This document shows positions 5,860-12,137 of a DNA stretch of 64,000 nt, in pieces. Under the pieces are notes generated by a model, which saw only the letters and a list, made by a program, of their open reading frames with translations, was not told the DNA's origin and did not search any database. Within the stretch, counting starts at the first letter, position 1. Every line of letters begins with the position of its first letter. Source of the DNA: Candidatus Planktophila sp. (GTDB taxonomy: Bacteria; Actinomycetota; Actinomycetes; Nanopelagicales; Nanopelagicaceae); contig BGOJ01000001.1 in NCBI GenBank assembly GCA_003569185.1, positions 190,557 to 254,556 of the forward strand, written 5' to 3'. The position numbers were made by a program, and so were the translations under genes.

Positions 5860-6840
5860 GTGAGCCTGAGCATGCAAGAGAAAAAAACCATCCCATCCCC
5901 AAGGAAAATCACCACCGAACCACGTTTTACCGACAAGGTTTTTCGAGGTGTGGTAACTAGTGGTGGATTAATTGCTGGCCTACTTCTTGGCTTAATTGGA
6001 TTCTTTTTAGTCTTTAATGGTTTTGAAGCGATGCGCTCTGCTGGTCTTTCATTTCTTACCGGCTTTGATTGGGTCGATGCAATTCCAGAGAATGGTCAAG
6101 CTGCCTCTTATGGAATTGGTGCGATGTTATACGGAACTATTGTTACTGGAATTTTGGCGATGATTATGGGCGTGCCAGTTGCAGTTGGTACCGCTTTGTT
6201 CCTTTCTTACTACGCACCGGAGTGGATTAAAAAACCAATGGTGGTAGTAGTTGATGTAATGGCAGCAATTCCATCAATTGTTTATGGCTTATGGGGTTAC
6301 TTTGTTTTAATGCCACATGCTGAGTACTGGGCAAAGTTAATTCATAAGTACTTTGGTTTTATTCCATTTTTTGATATGCCAGCGCCAGTCTTTACCAGAT
6401 CCCCTTTTATTGCAGGTTTAGTTCTTGCCATCATGATTATTCCAATTGTTACCGCGGTATCGCGTGAGGTATTTGCCCAAACACCACTTGAGCGAATTCA
6501 AGCAGCTTACGCTCTGGGTGCTACCAAGTGGTCGATGATTAAAGCGGTTGTCTTCCCGTATGGCAGAGGCGGTGTTATTGGTGGAGCGATGTTGGGATTG
6601 GGACGAGCATTAGGTGAGACAGTTGCCGTTTACACAGTTTTGAATTTAGTTTATGACATAAGAATTGAAGTTTTGCTAAGCGCCGGCGGCTCTGTTGCCT
6701 CCATGATTGTTAATAAGTTTGGTGAGGCAGATCCAGTTGAGCTTCAGGCATTAATGGGCGCAGGCTTTGTGCTCTTTATGGTGACCTTATTGGTTAACTT
6801 CTTAGCTAATTACATTATTAATAAGACAGCTAGAGAGTAG
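5860..6840 (+). CDS. pstC: Phosphate ABC transporter permease PstC
   Basis: One of the two membrane subunits of the high-affinity phosphate importer. The 326-aa product has a hydrophilic N-terminus of about 30 residues and about six membrane segments. The binding-protein-dependent permease EAA-type loop AAYALGATKWSMIKAVVFP lies near residues 216-234. The start is a GTG at 5860 with CAGGA 7 nt upstream; an in-frame ATG at 5872 is the alternative. It follows a PHO-box-like operator and is 4 nt from pstA. First gene of the phosphate cluster. Confidence 0.93.
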   Translation: MSLSMQEKKTIPSPRKITTEPRFTDKVFRGVVTSGGLIAGLLLGLIGFFLVFNGFEAMRSAGLSFLTGFDWVDAIPENGQAASYGIGAMLYGTIVTGILAMIMGVPVAVGTALFLSYYAPEWIKKPMVVVVDVMAAIPSIVYGLWGYFVLMPHAEYWAKLIHKYFGFIPFFDMPAPVFTRSPFIAGLVLAIMIIPIVTAVSREVFAQTPLERIQAAYALGATKWSMIKAVVFPYGRGGVIGGAMLGLGRALGETVAVYTVLNLVYDIRIEVLLSAGGSVASMIVNKFGEADPVELQALMGAGFVLFMVTLLVNFLANYIINKTARE

Positions 6841-6844
6841 AAAG

Positions 6845-7900
6845 ATGAGCCAAACTACCCTTAACGTTAAGCCTGAGCACCCATGGAAGTTAACCCCAAA
6901 GGATTTAGTAACAGATTTACTTGGCGCACTTTTTACATTACTTAGCACCTTAGCAATTGTTGGATTCTCACCCCTTAAGGGCAAGTTAGGTTTTGCCCTC
7001 ACCTTAATTGTGATGGCAATTGTTACTGCCACCGTTATGAGTTGGATTAGATTAGATCGAAAAGCGGCCGTCAACTCCTCAACTACTGTATTGGTTTATA
7101 TCGCAGCCTCATTTGTAATCATGGCGTTAGCCTCTGTGCTTTATGAAATTATCAGATTAGGCGCTCCTGGTTTTTCTCTCTCCATCTTTACTAAAGATAT
7201 GTCAGAGACAGCTTCTGATATGCCACTTACCGAGGGTGGTTTACTACACGCGGTAATTGGAACTGCTTACATAGTCACCTTTGCCACATTAATTGCCACC
7301 CCAATTGGGATCCTAACCGCGCTATATATTGTTGAGGTTAAAGGCAGATTTGCAGGAACAGTAAGATTTTTTGTGCAGGCGATGAGTGGTGTGCCATCAA
7401 TTGTGGCTGGTTTGTTTATCTTTGCATTTTGGATGATTCAATTAGGAAATTCCTATTCAGGAATTGCTGGCGGCTTTGCTTTAACGGTATTGATGATTCC
7501 AACTGTGGCAAGAACAGCGGAGGAGGTTTTGAAGTTAATCCCGCAAGATCTTCGTGAGGCAGGATTAGCACTTGGTGCTACTCAATGGCGAACAGTTGCG
7601 ATGGTGGTAATTCCAGCAGCCCGTAGCGGATTAATTACTGCAGTTATCTTAGGAATTGCACGTGTTGTCGGTGAGACTGCGCCTTTGTTGTTAACTATTG
7701 GTGGGGCGGATGCGATTAATTTAAATCCAACCGCTGGCAACATGTCAGCCTTTCCATACTACGTCTGGAAGAACCTTCTTATCGGCAGTGAGAATGCGAT
7801 TAGTAGAGCCTGGCTTGGTGTCTTTGTATTAATGATTTTAGTTTTAATATTTTTTGCTCTAGCTAGGTACTTTGGCGCAGCAAAGGGAAGTAGAAAATGA
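6845..7900 (+). CDS. pstA: Phosphate ABC transporter permease PstA
   Basis: Second membrane subunit of the phosphate importer, pairing with PstC. The 351-aa product begins with two predicted membrane segments (about 25-70), followed by the transport domain with the EAA-like loop [22 protein letters not shown] near 235-257 and [14 protein letters not shown] after it. This is longer than the ~290-300 aa of many PstA proteins because of the N-terminal membrane pair. The gene ends in an ATGA overlap with pstB, so the two are translationally coupled. Confidence 0.93.
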
Positions 7901-8823
7901 GTAATCAAAATGAATCAGGCAATCGAGAGGATAATATGAGCCAAATGACCGGAAAGCAGACAAGTACAAGTAGGCCTACGCCAGCATCGGGTGCTACTCG
8001 CTCACTTGGTGATGTGGCATCAGCACGAACAGTCAACGCTGGCAAGCCCAACTCCGGTGGCAGTGGCCTTGAAGCAAGAGGAGTACATGCCTGGTTTGGT
8101 AAGAAACATGTTTTAGAAGATATCTCAATGGATTTTGCAACTGGAACTGTTACGGCATTAATTGGTCCATCTGGTTGTGGAAAATCAACATTTATCCGCA
8201 CCTTAAACCGAATGCATGAGTTTATTCCAACCGCTGCCCTTGCCGGTCAGGTATTACTAGATGGCAAGGATGTTTATGAGCCAGGGGTTGATGTAACAAA
8301 GATTCGTCTTAAGGTAGGAATGGTTTTCCAAAAACCAAACCCATTTCCATCAATGACTATCAAAGAGAATGTTTTGTCAGGCTTGAAGTTATCTCAAATT
8401 AAAATTGAAAATTCAGATGAGTTACTTGAGAGCTGCCTAAAACGAGCTGGCTTGTGGGATGAGGTTAAGGATCGACTTAATGAGTATGGTGGCTCCCTTT
8501 CTGGTGGTCAACAACAACGTCTATGTATTGCCCGATCCCTGGCAGTTAGCCCACAGGTTTTACTGATGGATGAACCATGCTCTGCCCTTGATCCAGGATC
8601 TACTCTTCGAATTGAAGAGACAATTCGTGAGCTAGCAAACACCATGAGCGTTGTAATCGTTACCCACAATATGCAACAAGCTGCCCGAGTATCTGATTAC
8701 ACCGGCTTTTTCCTATCCGATGGTGGCCCTGGTCGATTGGTGGAGAGTGCAACTACGGTTGAGATCTTTACTAATCCAAAGCAGAAGCGCACTGAGGATT
8801 ATGTATCTGGCAGATTTGGTTAA
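7897..8823 (+). CDS. pstB: Phosphate ABC transporter ATPase PstB
   Basis: Cytoplasmic ATPase that powers phosphate import. Walker [10 protein letters not shown] begins near residue 90, the ABC signature LSGGQQQR near 202 and Walker B VLLMDEP near 220, followed by the PstB-typical switch region with [12 protein letters not shown]. The ATG at 7897 overlaps the pstA stop by 4 nt. It gives a low-complexity Ser/Thr/Gly-rich extension of about 55 residues before the ABC core, which begins around [12 protein letters not shown]. An internal ATG at 7936 could be the true start. The extension is unusual for PstB (normally about 255-260 aa). Confidence 0.93.
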
Positions 8824-8839
8824 TTTCTAGACACCAATT

Positions 8840-8872
8840 GTTAACTTAACTTACATATCTAGTTCACCAGAA
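8840..8872 (+). promoter_or_regulatory. Degenerate PHO-box-like repeat upstream of pstS
   Basis: Units GTTAACTTAAC (8840-8850), TTACATATCTA (8851-8861) and GTTCACCAGAA (8862-8872) keep the same 11-nt phase as the repeat before pstC. The last unit carries the full GTTCACC core. This suggests that pstS has its own PhoP-controlled promoter and can be made in excess over the transporter subunits. The first two units are degenerate, so confidence is moderate. Confidence 0.55.
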
Positions 8873-8935
8873 AAACCTTGGTAATTACCCTTACTTAACT
8901 AAGTTTGCCTCAACAACCCGATTCAAGGAGGCGTT

Positions 8936-10123
8936 ATGAAGTTTCGCAAGAAAATTGCAGTGGCAGCACTTGCCACCTCAGCATTAATTCTTACCTCAGT
9001 TCCAGCTCATGCTGGTTCAATCAATGGCAGCGGTGCAACATTTGCACAGCCATTAATTGATGTTTGTAAAGTAGAGTTCACAAAAGATACTGGTCACACA
9101 ATTAATTACACCGCTGGTGGTTCAGGTAAAGGACGAACAGATTTCACTAACAACCTAGTTGATTTTGCAGCCTCAGATGCTGTTTACACATCAGGTTTTC
9201 CTGCTCACTTAGAGTATGCACCAGTTTATGCAGCTCCAATCGCAATTTTTTATAACCTACCAACAGTAAAAGAGCCGATCAATATCAGTGCTGAAACTCT
9301 GGCACAGATCTTCAGTGGCGAAATTACAAAGTGGAATGATCCTCGAATCATTGAAGAGAACCAAAATGTCACAATCAAGACACCTGTTTACAAGACTAAA
9401 AAAGAGGTAGTAACAGTTGGTGGCAAGAAGGTTACAAAGACAGTTCCAGTATTAGATAAAAATGGTAAGCCAACTGTGCTTAGCGTCAACTCTAAGACTG
9501 TAAATATCGCACTTCCAAACCAAGCAATCACCGTTTACTACCGAACTGATTCATCCGGTACATCAGAGCAGTTTGGTAAGTTCTTACAAGGTGCTAATGC
9601 TGGCAAGAATTCAGGAGTTTGGCCAAAGACAGCGAGTGGAACATTTGCTAACTCAACACCAAATAACATCGCAAACTCATTTAACTTCCAAGGTGCATCA
9701 GGTTCAGCCTTAGTTGCAGCTGGTGTTAAGGGCAAGGTTGGCGGAATTGGTTATGGTGAACTTTCTTGGGCAACTGATAACAAACTTTCAGTAGCAAGCA
9801 TTAAAAATGCAGCTGGTGAATTCGTAGCCCCATCCTCTGCTGGTACCTCTGCCTTCTTAGGTGGCGGCACAATTCAAGCAAACGGTAGCTTGGTTGCAGA
9901 TTATCTAAAGGCAATCACTGGTGCATACGCACTTGGAACAGCTTCCTACGGTTTGGTATACCCAGAGTCAGCTAAAAAAGATGCTGAGAAACAAAAGATC
10001 GTAGCTGAGTGGCACACCTATCTGTTAGAGCAATGCCCTAAGAAGTTCCCTGAGAAGGGTTATGTGGCACTTACTGGACCTTTGTATGACAAAGCAAAGG
10101 CACAGATTGCCAAGATCAAGTAA
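8936..10123 (+). CDS. pstS: Phosphate-binding protein PstS, secreted
   Basis: Extracytoplasmic phosphate receptor of the Pst importer. A Sec signal peptide is visible (positive MKFRKK, hydrophobic core, AHA-G cleavage near residue 27). Ligand-site motifs follow: GSGATFAQPL, TAGGSGKGRTDF, FAASDA and YRTDSSGTSEQF. No lipobox cysteine is seen, unlike the lipid-anchored PstS of many Gram-positives. An insert of about 45 residues rich in Lys, Val and Thr (about 146-190, from KTPVYKTKKEV to NSKTV) interrupts the usual domain. AAGGAGG stands at a good distance from the ATG. It is last in the cluster rather than first, with its own upstream region of 112 bases and a strong terminator behind it. Confidence 0.95.
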   Translation: MKFRKKIAVAALATSALILTSVPAHAGSINGSGATFAQPLIDVCKVEFTKDTGHTINYTAGGSGKGRTDFTNNLVDFAASDAVYTSGFPAHLEYAPVYAAPIAIFYNLPTVKEPINISAETLAQIFSGEITKWNDPRIIEENQNVTIKTPVYKTKKEVVTVGGKKVTKTVPVLDKNGKPTVLSVNSKTVNIALPNQAITVYYRTDSSGTSEQFGKFLQGANAGKNSGVWPKTASGTFANSTPNNIANSFNFQGASGSALVAAGVKGKVGGIGYGELSWATDNKLSVASIKNAAGEFVAPSSAGTSAFLGGGTIQANGSLVADYLKAITGAYALGTASYGLVYPESAKKDAEKQKIVAEWHTYLLEQCPKKFPEKGYVALTGPLYDKAKAQIAKIK

Positions 10124-10201: not shown

Positions 10202-10561
10202 ATGGAATTCACATATAACCTCTTTTTAACTCTTCACTTTATTGGACTTGCTGGCTTACTTGGCGGCTTACTTGCTCAGATTCCAAATAAGCCAAAACAA
10301 CTACAAAAGTTAGTAATGCATAGCGGATTGCTGATGCTAATTGCTGGCCTTGTCATGGTTGGTATTAATCAGATGATGCATGCAGATGATCCAAGTGTTG
10401 AGCTTTTAGATCATGTAAAGATTGCAATCAAAAGCACTGTATTAATTGTGATACTTGCACTTGGTTACCTAAATATTAAAAAGAGTGAGTTATCAAATAA
10501 GGTGTGGGGAGTAATGACCCTGCTTGCAACAGCAAATGTAGTAATTGCAGTCTTTATTTAA
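10202..10561 (+). CDS. Small four-helix membrane protein, unknown function
   Basis: 119 aa with four hydrophobic segments at about 5-25, 38-56, 70-90 and 98-118. Two His-bearing sites are near helix ends (LHFIG at about 12 and LVMHSG at about 40). No family motif that I recognise. The ATG at 10202 is preceded by TAGTAC 9 nt upstream and no Shine-Dalgarno sequence. The gene stands alone between the pst terminator and the structured leader at about 10600. Probably an actinobacterial integral membrane protein; function unknown. Confidence 0.75.
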   Translation: MEFTYNLFLTLHFIGLAGLLGGLLAQIPNKPKQLQKLVMHSGLLMLIAGLVMVGINQMMHADDPSVELLDHVKIAIKSTVLIVILALGYLNIKKSELSNKVWGVMTLLATANVVIAVFI

Positions 10562-10565
10562 GTAA

Positions 10566-10595
10566 TTGGATTAAACACGCCCGGTAGTGTAAAAT
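10566..10595 (+). promoter_or_regulatory. Promoter for the structured leader and FAD oxidoreductase
   Basis: TTGGAT (10566-10571) and TAAAAT (10590-10595) are separated by 18 bp, a good match to a vegetative sigma-factor promoter. Transcription would start near 10601-10603, immediately before the folded leader. Confidence 0.6.
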
Positions 10596-10600
10596 ACGGG

Positions 10601-10724
10601 TTGTAGCTGTAACGAACCACAGATTGCTAGATAAAGATCTGCGTTACGGGTGTGGACTCCGGAGGACCCGGGCCACTTTTAAATACGCAAAGGGGTGGAA
10701 TCCGGTTTACACCGGAGTCAGCCC
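10601..10724 (+). ncRNA. Structured 5' leader, candidate orphan riboswitch
   Basis: The roughly 120-nt untranslated leader contains several exact complementarities. A stem GTAACG (10609-10614)/CGTTAC (10642-10647) stacks through an AACCA bulge on CAGAT (10620-10624)/ATCTG (10637-10641). GTGG (10652-10655) can pair with CCAC (10673-10676). TCCGGT (10701-10706)/ACCGGA (10711-10716) is a hairpin with loop TTAC. GACTCCGG (10655-10662) is perfectly complementary to CCGGAGTC (10712-10719), and GGAG (10714-10717) is the likely Shine-Dalgarno of the downstream ATG at 10725. These pairings exclude each other, as expected for a translational switch. It does not match the conserved cores I know for TPP, cobalamin, SAM, glycine, lysine, guanidine, ZTP or c-di-AMP elements. 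Ligand unknown. Confidence 0.6.
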
Positions 10725-12137
10725 ATGCCAGCGATAAATCCAATTGTTTTAAACTCATTAGCTGATCTACAACCATCTTTGTATTGGTTAGATGCTGATC
10801 CATTAGAGCCTAGCTCTCACTCTGCCTTAACCAGTGATATTCAAACTGATCTTTGCATTATTGGCGCCGGCTACACCGGACTTTGGACAGCACTCCTTGC
10901 AAAGGAGCGAGATCCAAACCGTGAGGTAGTAATTATTGAGATGCGTGAGACTGGAAATGGTGCCTCAGGGCGAAATGGTGGATTTTGTAATGCATCCCTT
11001 ACTCATGGTTTTGTTAATGGTTACACCCGCTTTCCTGATGAGATGGCGGTAATTGAAAAATTAGGAAGAGAAAATCTTGATGCGATGGAAGAGACAATAA
11101 AGAGATACAAGATCGATTGTGATTTTGAAAGAAATGGTGAGCTTCGCATGGCAGTTGCCCCATGGCAGATGGCTGGCTTAAAAGAGGAGGCGATTGCTAG
11201 AAATAAAACTGGCGATCATGTTGAGGTTTTAGATAAAGAGCAGGTTAGAGCATTGGTTAACTCACCAATTTATGAAGGCGCACTCTTTGATCATGATGGA
11301 ACTGCGCTAGTTGATCCAGCTAGATTAGTTTGGGGATTAGAGAAGGCTTGTTTGTCACTTGGCGTAAAGATCTATGAAAACTCTAAAGTGGATGAGTTAA
11401 TAGATGATGATGATCATGTTGTGGTTAAGAGTGCTTATGGATCAATTAGGGCAAAGAAAGTAGCGCTCGCCACAAATGTTTACACACCCCTGATTAAGAG
11501 TGTTAAAAAGTATGTAATTGCAGTTTATGACTTTCAATTAGTAACCCAGCCATTAACTGCTGCGCAATTAGAAAGTATTGGTTGGAAAGGTCGGGAGGGA
11601 CTCTCCGATGCCGGGTATCAATTCCATTACTACCGGTTAACTAAAGAGAATGAGATTTTATGGGGTGGTTATGATGCAATTTATAACTACGCCGGCAAGG
11701 TGAGATCTGAGTATGAAACACGTCCTGAAACCTATGCAAAGCTTGCAACTAACTTCTTTAAAACCTTTCCGCAATTAGCTGGAATTAAATTCACCCATGG
11801 TTGGGGTGGGGCAATTGATACCTGCTCAAGATTTTCACCCTTTTGGGGCCAAGCATTTGATGACAAGGTTGCTTACGTTCTTGGCTATACCGGGCTTGGA
11901 GTAGCAACAACACGTTTTGGCGCATCGGTGATGCTTGATTTACTAGATGGTGTTGAAAGTGAAGCAACCCAATTATCGATGGTTAAACACAAACCAATTC
12001 CATTTCCACCAGAGCCATTTAGATTCTTATTTATCCGCCTTACCCAATGGTCAATTACTAAGGCAGATAAGAATGGCGGTAAACGAAACCTTTGGCTTCG
12101 CTTACTTGATCGACTTGGGTTGGGCTTTGATTCTTAA
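10725..12137 (+). CDS. FAD-dependent oxidoreductase, DAO (amine/amino-acid oxidase) family
   Basis: A 470-aa flavoprotein with an N-terminal GAGYTG dinucleotide motif (about 47-52), the GNGASGRNGGFCNAS stretch typical of DAO/PuuB-like oxidases, and a C-terminal TGLGVATTRFGA segment closing over FAD. Relatives oxidise secondary amines, glycine, sarcosine or gamma-glutamylputrescine; the substrate here cannot be told. I start at the ATG at 10725, with GGAG 7 nt upstream. An in-frame GTG at 10695 lies inside the structured leader and is unlikely. The leader upstream suggests that a small metabolite controls expression. Apparently monocistronic. Confidence 0.85.
   Translation: MPAINPIVLNSLADLQPSLYWLDADPLEPSSHSALTSDIQTDLCIIGAGYTGLWTALLAKERDPNREVVIIEMRETGNGASGRNGGFCNASLTHGFVNGYTRFPDEMAVIEKLGRENLDAMEETIKRYKIDCDFERNGELRMAVAPWQMAGLKEEAIARNKTGDHVEVLDKEQVRALVNSPIYEGALFDHDGTALVDPARLVWGLEKACLSLGVKIYENSKVDELIDDDDHVVVKSAYGSIRAKKVALATNVYTPLIKSVKKYVIAVYDFQLVTQPLTAAQLESIGWKGREGLSDAGYQFHYYRLTKENEILWGGYDAIYNYAGKVRSEYETRPETYAKLATNFFKTFPQLAGIKFTHGWGGAIDTCSRFSPFWGQAFDDKVAYVLGYTGLGVATTRFGASVMLDLLDGVESEATQLSMVKHKPIPFPPEPFRFLFIRLTQWSITKADKNGGKRNLWLRLLDRLGLGFDS

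Follow-up and report, generated by a model that had tools for sequence, protein, structure and literature searches.

Natural polyamine riboswitches are rare, with one class recently reported (PMC10853860). This spermidine riboswitch is a SAM-I variant that sits on polyamine biosynthesis genes and has a proven polyamine ligand; as explained by its authors, earlier claims of polyamine riboswitches are unconvincing. The potE and odc1 motifs are structured leaders before polyamine genes and are orphans with regard to their ligand (PMC8632094). The potE motif is confined to Veillonella, and its covariation is poorly supported according to its authors. Guanidine-IV and the Gd4v variant are small leaders on nitrogen-compound genes, the latter being an orphan of Actinobacteria and other phyla (PMC9788692). 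For acI bacteria, polyamine use has been predicted (PMC5574706). In the open papers searched, no acI riboswitch or oxidase-linked RNA motif is described, and no natural riboswitch for polyamine breakdown was found.

The RNA considered here lies in a 64,000-nt stretch of DNA from Candidatus Planktophila sp. (the window), directly before an amine oxidase gene. This oxidase leader is a real, conserved and structured RNA. Its elements, as read directly from the window sequence, are as follows.

10566 to 10595, + strand: sigma-70-type promoter-like element, with -35 TTGGAT at 10566-10571, 18 nt, and -10 TAAAAT at 10590-10595
10607 to 10614, + strand: 5' strand of P1, CUGUAACG, partner of 10642-10649; changes on both sides in 8/8 pairs among 53 sequences
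10615 to 10619, + strand: bulge AACCA at the P1-P2 junction; five nt, A-rich in nearly all family relatives in the alignments
10620 to 10641, + strand: P2 hairpin, CAGAU 10620-10624 with AUCUG 10637-10641; changes on both sides in 5/5 pairs
10642 to 10649, + strand: 3' strand of P1, CGUUACGG; covariation in three alignments
10650 to 10655, + strand: 5' strand of P3, GUGUGG, partner of 10673-10678 with one U-U mismatch
10656 to 10672, + strand: nearly invariant core inside P3, ACUCCGGAGGACCCGGG, a candidate binding site
10673 to 10678, + strand: 3' strand of P3, CCACUU; 10673-10680 is the partner of 10691-10698 in the alternative fold
10689 to 10699, + strand: Shine-Dalgarno (SD)-like element AAAGGGGUGGA, conserved in the family and reading AAGGGGUGA in most relatives
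10701 to 10716, + strand: P4 hairpin, UCCGGU/ACCGGA (10701-10706/10711-10716), separating the SD-like element from the start codon
10712 to 10719, + strand: CCGGAGUC, genus-specific second SD with GGAG at 10714-10717, complementary to 10655-10662
10725 to 12137, + strand: FAD-dependent DAO-family amine oxidase of 470 aa, Pfam DAO 1e-57, ATG at 10725

The promoter, the stems, the 8-nt complementarity, the GGAG and the alternative pairings of CCAC, all named in an earlier note on this DNA, were located where that note had placed them. P1 and P3 are longer than described there: GTAACG 10609-10614 / CGTTAC 10642-10647 is part of a P1 of 8 bp (10607-10614/10642-10649), and P3 extends beyond GTGG 10652-10655 / CCAC 10673-10676 to 10650-10655/10673-10678 with a single mismatch. 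The core can form a hairpin of CCGG 10659-10662 and CCGG 10668-10671 around the loop AGGAC. A second GTGG at 10695-10698 is the alternative partner of CCAC 10673-10676, and GACTCCGG at 10655-10662 is complementary to CCGGAGTC at 10712-10719, the latter including GGAG 10714-10717. The 140-nt leader 10601-10740 folds at -47.1 kcal/mol compared to -37.2 +/- 3.7 in 200 dinucleotide shuffles (z -2.65), with 1/200 shuffles being equally good. The genome it belongs to, an assembly of 6 contigs with about 64% completeness, holds the RNA in one copy.

The reading preferred here, with a probability of about 0.62, is that the leader is a riboswitch with a ligand from the polyamine pathway, in which stabilisation of P3 favours translation of the oxidase. 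What the data establish is the conserved structure and location of the module, its promoter-like box, its gene and, in the window species, two near-equal folds; ligand binding, the identity of the ligand, a translational mode and an ON direction are inferences.

A search of Rfam 15 gave no match at gathering scores anywhere in the leader region, bearing out the statement of the earlier note that no known riboswitch class is recognisable. At E up to 10, the only match is BSnc120 (RF02621, E 0.42), a chance resemblance to the P4 hairpin with 16.6 of the 114 bits needed. A tRNA-like pseudogene or T-box is absent from 10590-10730 (Rfam; ARAGORN for tRNA), and SAM-I or the spermidine riboswitch was rejected, no SAM-family match being present at E up to 10.

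Homologues were collected in two ways, by searching 150 related genomes at the DNA level and by fetching relatives of the oxidase with tblastn. They are alignable over the whole leader and are sited upstream of the orthologous oxidase. The consensus starts with P1 (8 bp), a 5' side bulge of 5 nt, mostly A-rich, P2 with a loop of differing length among relatives, and a P3 of 6 bp abutting P1; it continues with the UCCGGAGGACCCGGG block within P3, a variable linker, AAGGGGUGA, P4, 4-9 nt and the AUG. The covariance search and the check for compensatory changes proposed in the earlier note support this structure: among 53 distinct sequences from two families combined, double changes are seen in P1 in 8/8, P2 in 5/5 and P3 in 4/6 pairs, and the covariation score is 0.563 versus 0.195 +/- 0.011 for shuffled and at most 0.122 for slid controls. 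P3 is paired in 87% of its cells, the middle pair often being mismatched. In 23 chosen sequences, 91.9% of the pair cells are standard and the score is 0.438 versus 0.192 shuffled. For 60 distinct rows, the score is 0.361 versus 0.165 shuffled, with slid controls at most 0.104, in an alignment fitted to the model and hence biased towards it; alignment A1 is plain MAFFT. P4 is found in every family member once register is allowed for, with a compensatory change to CCAGC/GCUGG in one relative (L155).

Within P3, the core UCCGGAGGACCCGGG is almost unchanged among relatives. In the 53 sequences, which come from two orders, UCCGG-GGACCCG is invariant and two more positions are conserved to at least 90%. 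Because the core sequence is invariant, the CCGG hairpin has no covariation support of its own.

Model R1 (E up to 1) has matches in 126/296 genomes of acI / Nanopelagicaceae, in 10/17 genera and essentially in single copy. Most have E values near 1e-20, and a handful of the weakest among the 126 are not members. A few genomes gave a second copy; the examples fetched are located at contig ends and probably reflect split assemblies. In a class-wide sample of 395 genomes, the RNA is present in 22/27 family genomes with the oxidase and in 0/14 without it. The oxidase is the next gene on the same strand in 71/73 RNA-bearing loci, the other two not being assessable (one cut by a contig end, one clashing with a spurious minus-strand match). 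None of the outcomes that the earlier note had named as speaking against its proposal was seen: covariation is strong, no known class or tRNA appears, and the leader is kept before the orthologous oxidases.

Beyond the family, one weak R1 match (E 0.065) stands before an oxidase homologue and has P1, bulge, P2, P3 and core intact. With the aptamer-only model R2, a second family from another order (f38) was found to have nine members, weak ones included, in three genera, each directly before the oxidase. In f38 there is no P4, and SD and start codon follow within about 25 nt after P3. In the other families fetched, R2 run with filters off found nothing convincing ahead of the oxidase. Several other candidates were set aside. 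Among matches of E 0.05-0.9 in family genomes, L145-L150 are oxidase orthologues without P1-P3, L143 is N-masked, and L144 and L151 are chance. Two matches in other parts of the class (L134, L135) have no oxidase and are chance as well. A further 13 genomes of the phylum contain the exact 15-nt core, but never next to the oxidase, so these copies too were put down to chance.

The main rival to a riboswitch is an mRNA element bound by a regulatory protein, be it in autoregulation or by a global RNA-binding protein, with no metabolite being sensed. Short hairpins with a fixed loop are frequent in protein-bound leaders, and the core is such a hairpin (CCGG-AGGAC-CCGG), with a loop GGA reminiscent of CsrA sites; moreover, only one gene family is linked to the RNA. 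However, CsrA is missing from the window's genus (0/25 genomes, control genomes positive), ruling out a CsrA target, and the oxidase is without a recognised RNA-binding domain in Pfam. Typical CsrA or ANTAR sites are also smaller than an invariant core with three covarying helices. Binding of a protein to the core is considered rather unlikely.

The position of the promoter is well conserved. In 52/55 distinct upstream regions, the distance from the end of a TANNNT box to P1 is 8-11 nt, any other 4-nt bin holding at most 11; in 8/8 assessable cases of f38 it is 6-8 nt. In operon-type relatives, the box overlaps the potC stop codon. With a -10 box at fixed spacing before P1, the RNA should form the 5' end of the mRNA, i.e. 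it should be the first part transcribed from a promoter of its own, as judged from sequence.

P1-P3 is a discrete module, some lineages having the oxidase without it, and it is missing as a unit from some orthologues that keep SD, P4 and AUG. In L145-L150, the module and the promoter are gone, and potC is followed immediately by the SD-like element, P4 and the oxidase AUG. As these natural module deletions keep the latter three, P1-P3 is a separable unit, and AAGGGGUGA (or GAGGUGA), P4 and AUG are suggested to be a ribosome-binding unit by themselves. More distant oxidase leaders (L040, ~610-662; L045, ~2430-2485; L046, ~915-967) keep only GAGAGUGGGUGA, a hairpin and the AUG. A hairpin separating the SD from the start codon may go further back in the history of the oxidase gene.

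A structural 5' cap, protecting the mRNA or fixing its translation rate without sensing, would account for an RNA that starts at the predicted transcription start, is essentially single-copy per genome and is missing from some orthologues. Still, a bare stabilising hairpin needs no core that is invariant over two orders beside freely covarying stems, and this explanation is held to be less probable than a protein site.

For 10602-10735 of the window, the fold with P1, P2, P3, the core hairpin and P4 has -46.7 kcal/mol. An alternative fold with 10673-10680/10691-10698 and 10655-10662/10712-10719 has -44.8 kcal/mol. The two are thus within about 2 kcal/mol, with an ensemble of about 52:48. The probability of P3 varies with the ends chosen, being 0.52 for 10602-10735 and 0.04 for 10607-10727. 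For the family as a whole, P1 and P2 are stable in most cases, and P3 and P4 often compete with other folds; the mean P3 probability is 0.50, and these values likewise vary with the ends chosen.

The competing pairings that the earlier note took as a mark of translational control are thus present in the window species as two near-equal folds, but as a complementarity they are not conserved across the family. Pairing of the SD with the P3 3' strand is strong in the window's genus, yet over the family weaker than with shuffled strands (mean duplex -3.9 versus -5.0 kcal/mol). SD sequestration by this strand as a general platform therefore has no family-wide support, and the expression platform does not appear to be conserved. 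Likewise, the 8-nt complementarity said to bury the SD is perfect in the window but confined to its genus: as a conserved pairing, GACUCCGG/CCGGAGUC was rejected, other genera having CCGGA-U and AGUC being absent. Window-type strand exchange is a genus-level feature, and in most relatives the SD is likelier to be the conserved AAGGGGUGA upstream of P4. Translational control of the oxidase is likely on the basis of these predicted folds.

Two near-equal folds might also fit a leader responding to temperature or Mg2+, and both polyamines and Mg2+ stabilise RNA folds. A thermometer, however, has no need of invariant non-helical bases, and the gene is a metabolic one that lies in a polyamine operon in relatives, making such a response very improbable. 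A leader peptide, an attenuator or a DNA operator without a role as RNA can practically be dismissed: although an in-frame GTG at 10695 extends the oxidase frame, the loop and linker length changes in the alignments are not multiples of three and no frame is conserved, no T run follows P4 in the window, and compensatory changes including G-U pairs indicate RNA.

The ligand proposed in the riboswitch reading follows from the gene context. The oxidase falls below the cut-off for every specific NCBIfam equivalog, and a PDB sequence search gave no match at 1e-5. In relatives, the operon order is aminobutyraldehyde dehydrogenase, PotD/PotF-like, PotA, PotB, PotC, RNA, oxidase and agmatinase, with aminobutyraldehyde dehydrogenase (NF010000), PotA (TIGR01187) and agmatinase (TIGR01230) being above cut-off; a GABA transaminase, also above cut-off, lies near this operon. 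Members of the window's genus carry the oxidase away from the polyamine operon, with the RNA still attached to the oxidase. The polyamine operon of the window's genome lies ~3.5-12 kb past the right end of the window, and the oxidase with its RNA stands alone beside pst phosphate genes. Other genera with a lone oxidase also retain the RNA (L160, L163, L165, L168). Because relocated or lone oxidases keep it, the RNA follows the oxidase and not the transporter.

Several further observations concern these loci. The pst phosphate-transport genes (5860-10123) are directly upstream of the relocated oxidase, and a 119-aa ORF between them and the oxidase (10202-10561) has no Pfam match. In the oxidase-less polyamine operon of the window's genome, potC and agmatinase are separated by an unrelated 403-aa gene, and PotA is in two frames (L178, 6260-7389), by frameshift or assembly error. 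Close to the polyamine operon, but on the other strand, lies a second DAO-family paralogue (L158, 1-1173; L167, 389-1711; L164, 1-940), and the leader RNA was not found at it in these three loci.

As a single gene family is associated with the RNA, the ligand is proposed from pathway context. The operon of the relatives narrows the amine or amino acid of the earlier note to a compound taking part in the uptake and catabolism of polyamines, and the ligand is probably a polyamine-pathway compound. According to the proposed mechanism, 10602-10724 would be the untranslated 5' region of the oxidase mRNA, with its own promoter just before P1, and would fold as a compact module of P1, the 5-nt bulge, P2 and a P3 capped by the invariant hairpin core. 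By binding to the core, a small molecule of polyamine uptake or breakdown (putrescine, agmatine, spermidine or a product, e.g., aminobutyraldehyde or GABA) would stabilise P3. In consequence, the downstream ribosome-binding unit (AAGGGGUG[A/G], P4, AUG) would either open or close. For the window species, the alternative fold would place the P3 3' strand on the SD-like element and the core on the P4/second-SD region. Because the P3 3' strand pairs with the SD-like element in that fold, the simplest direction would be ON, with ligand-stabilised P3 allowing translation and more oxidase being made when substrate is plentiful.

A second orphan motif lies upstream of the same oxidase in two further families (f34, f39) and in three f38 genomes. 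It consists of GAAGGGAYUGGUGGGA and a covarying hairpin with variants such as CGGAGC/GCUCCG, CGAAGC/GCUUCG and GACGAGAC/GUCUCGUC, among others. The pattern occurs in 58/148 genomes of that order, almost always once, and the reversed-pattern control in few genomes; the oxidase is just downstream in 27/30 loci fetched. The loci are L225, L226, L228, L231-L234, L239, L284-L286, L288-L297, L299-L308 and L310-L313. This motif has no match in Rfam, is missing from all nine f38 genomes carrying the window-type RNA and is unrelated to that RNA. If two unrelated RNAs do precede this enzyme, the signal would seem to matter so much that RNA-based control evolved on two occasions.

The widest form of the proposal is a tentative one, clearly less probable than the riboswitch reading itself: a new natural riboswitch class with a ligand of diamine/polyamine catabolism (putrescine, agmatine or an aldehyde/GABA-type compound) may switch ON polyamine oxidation in abundant freshwater bacteria, a second, unrelated RNA doing the same job for this enzyme in another order. 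The acI bacteria are common in fresh water, and the RNA, a short candidate aptamer tied to one enzyme and one pathway, could show how streamlined genomes control nitrogen scavenging.

When compared to the described systems, the oxidase leader resembles the spermidine riboswitch as a leader RNA tied to polyamine genes, including the speB agmatinase (PMC10853860), but its core differs and its gene, an oxidase, is presumably catabolic. With the potE and odc1 motifs (PMC8632094) it shares its place before a polyamine gene and its orphan state, whereas it is actinobacterial, strongly covarying and linked to an oxidase, a distinction drawn from the descriptions of these motifs and not from their sequences. 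Like guanidine-IV and Gd4v, it is a small leader on a nitrogen-compound gene; the genes of Gd4v encode a transaminase domain and an N-acetyltransferase (PMC9788692), in contrast to the oxidase here, with its leader giving no Rfam match. Without a counterpart in Rfam 15, yet with a structure backed by covariation over two orders, the window RNA is a candidate for a new riboswitch-like class within a known kind of RNA.
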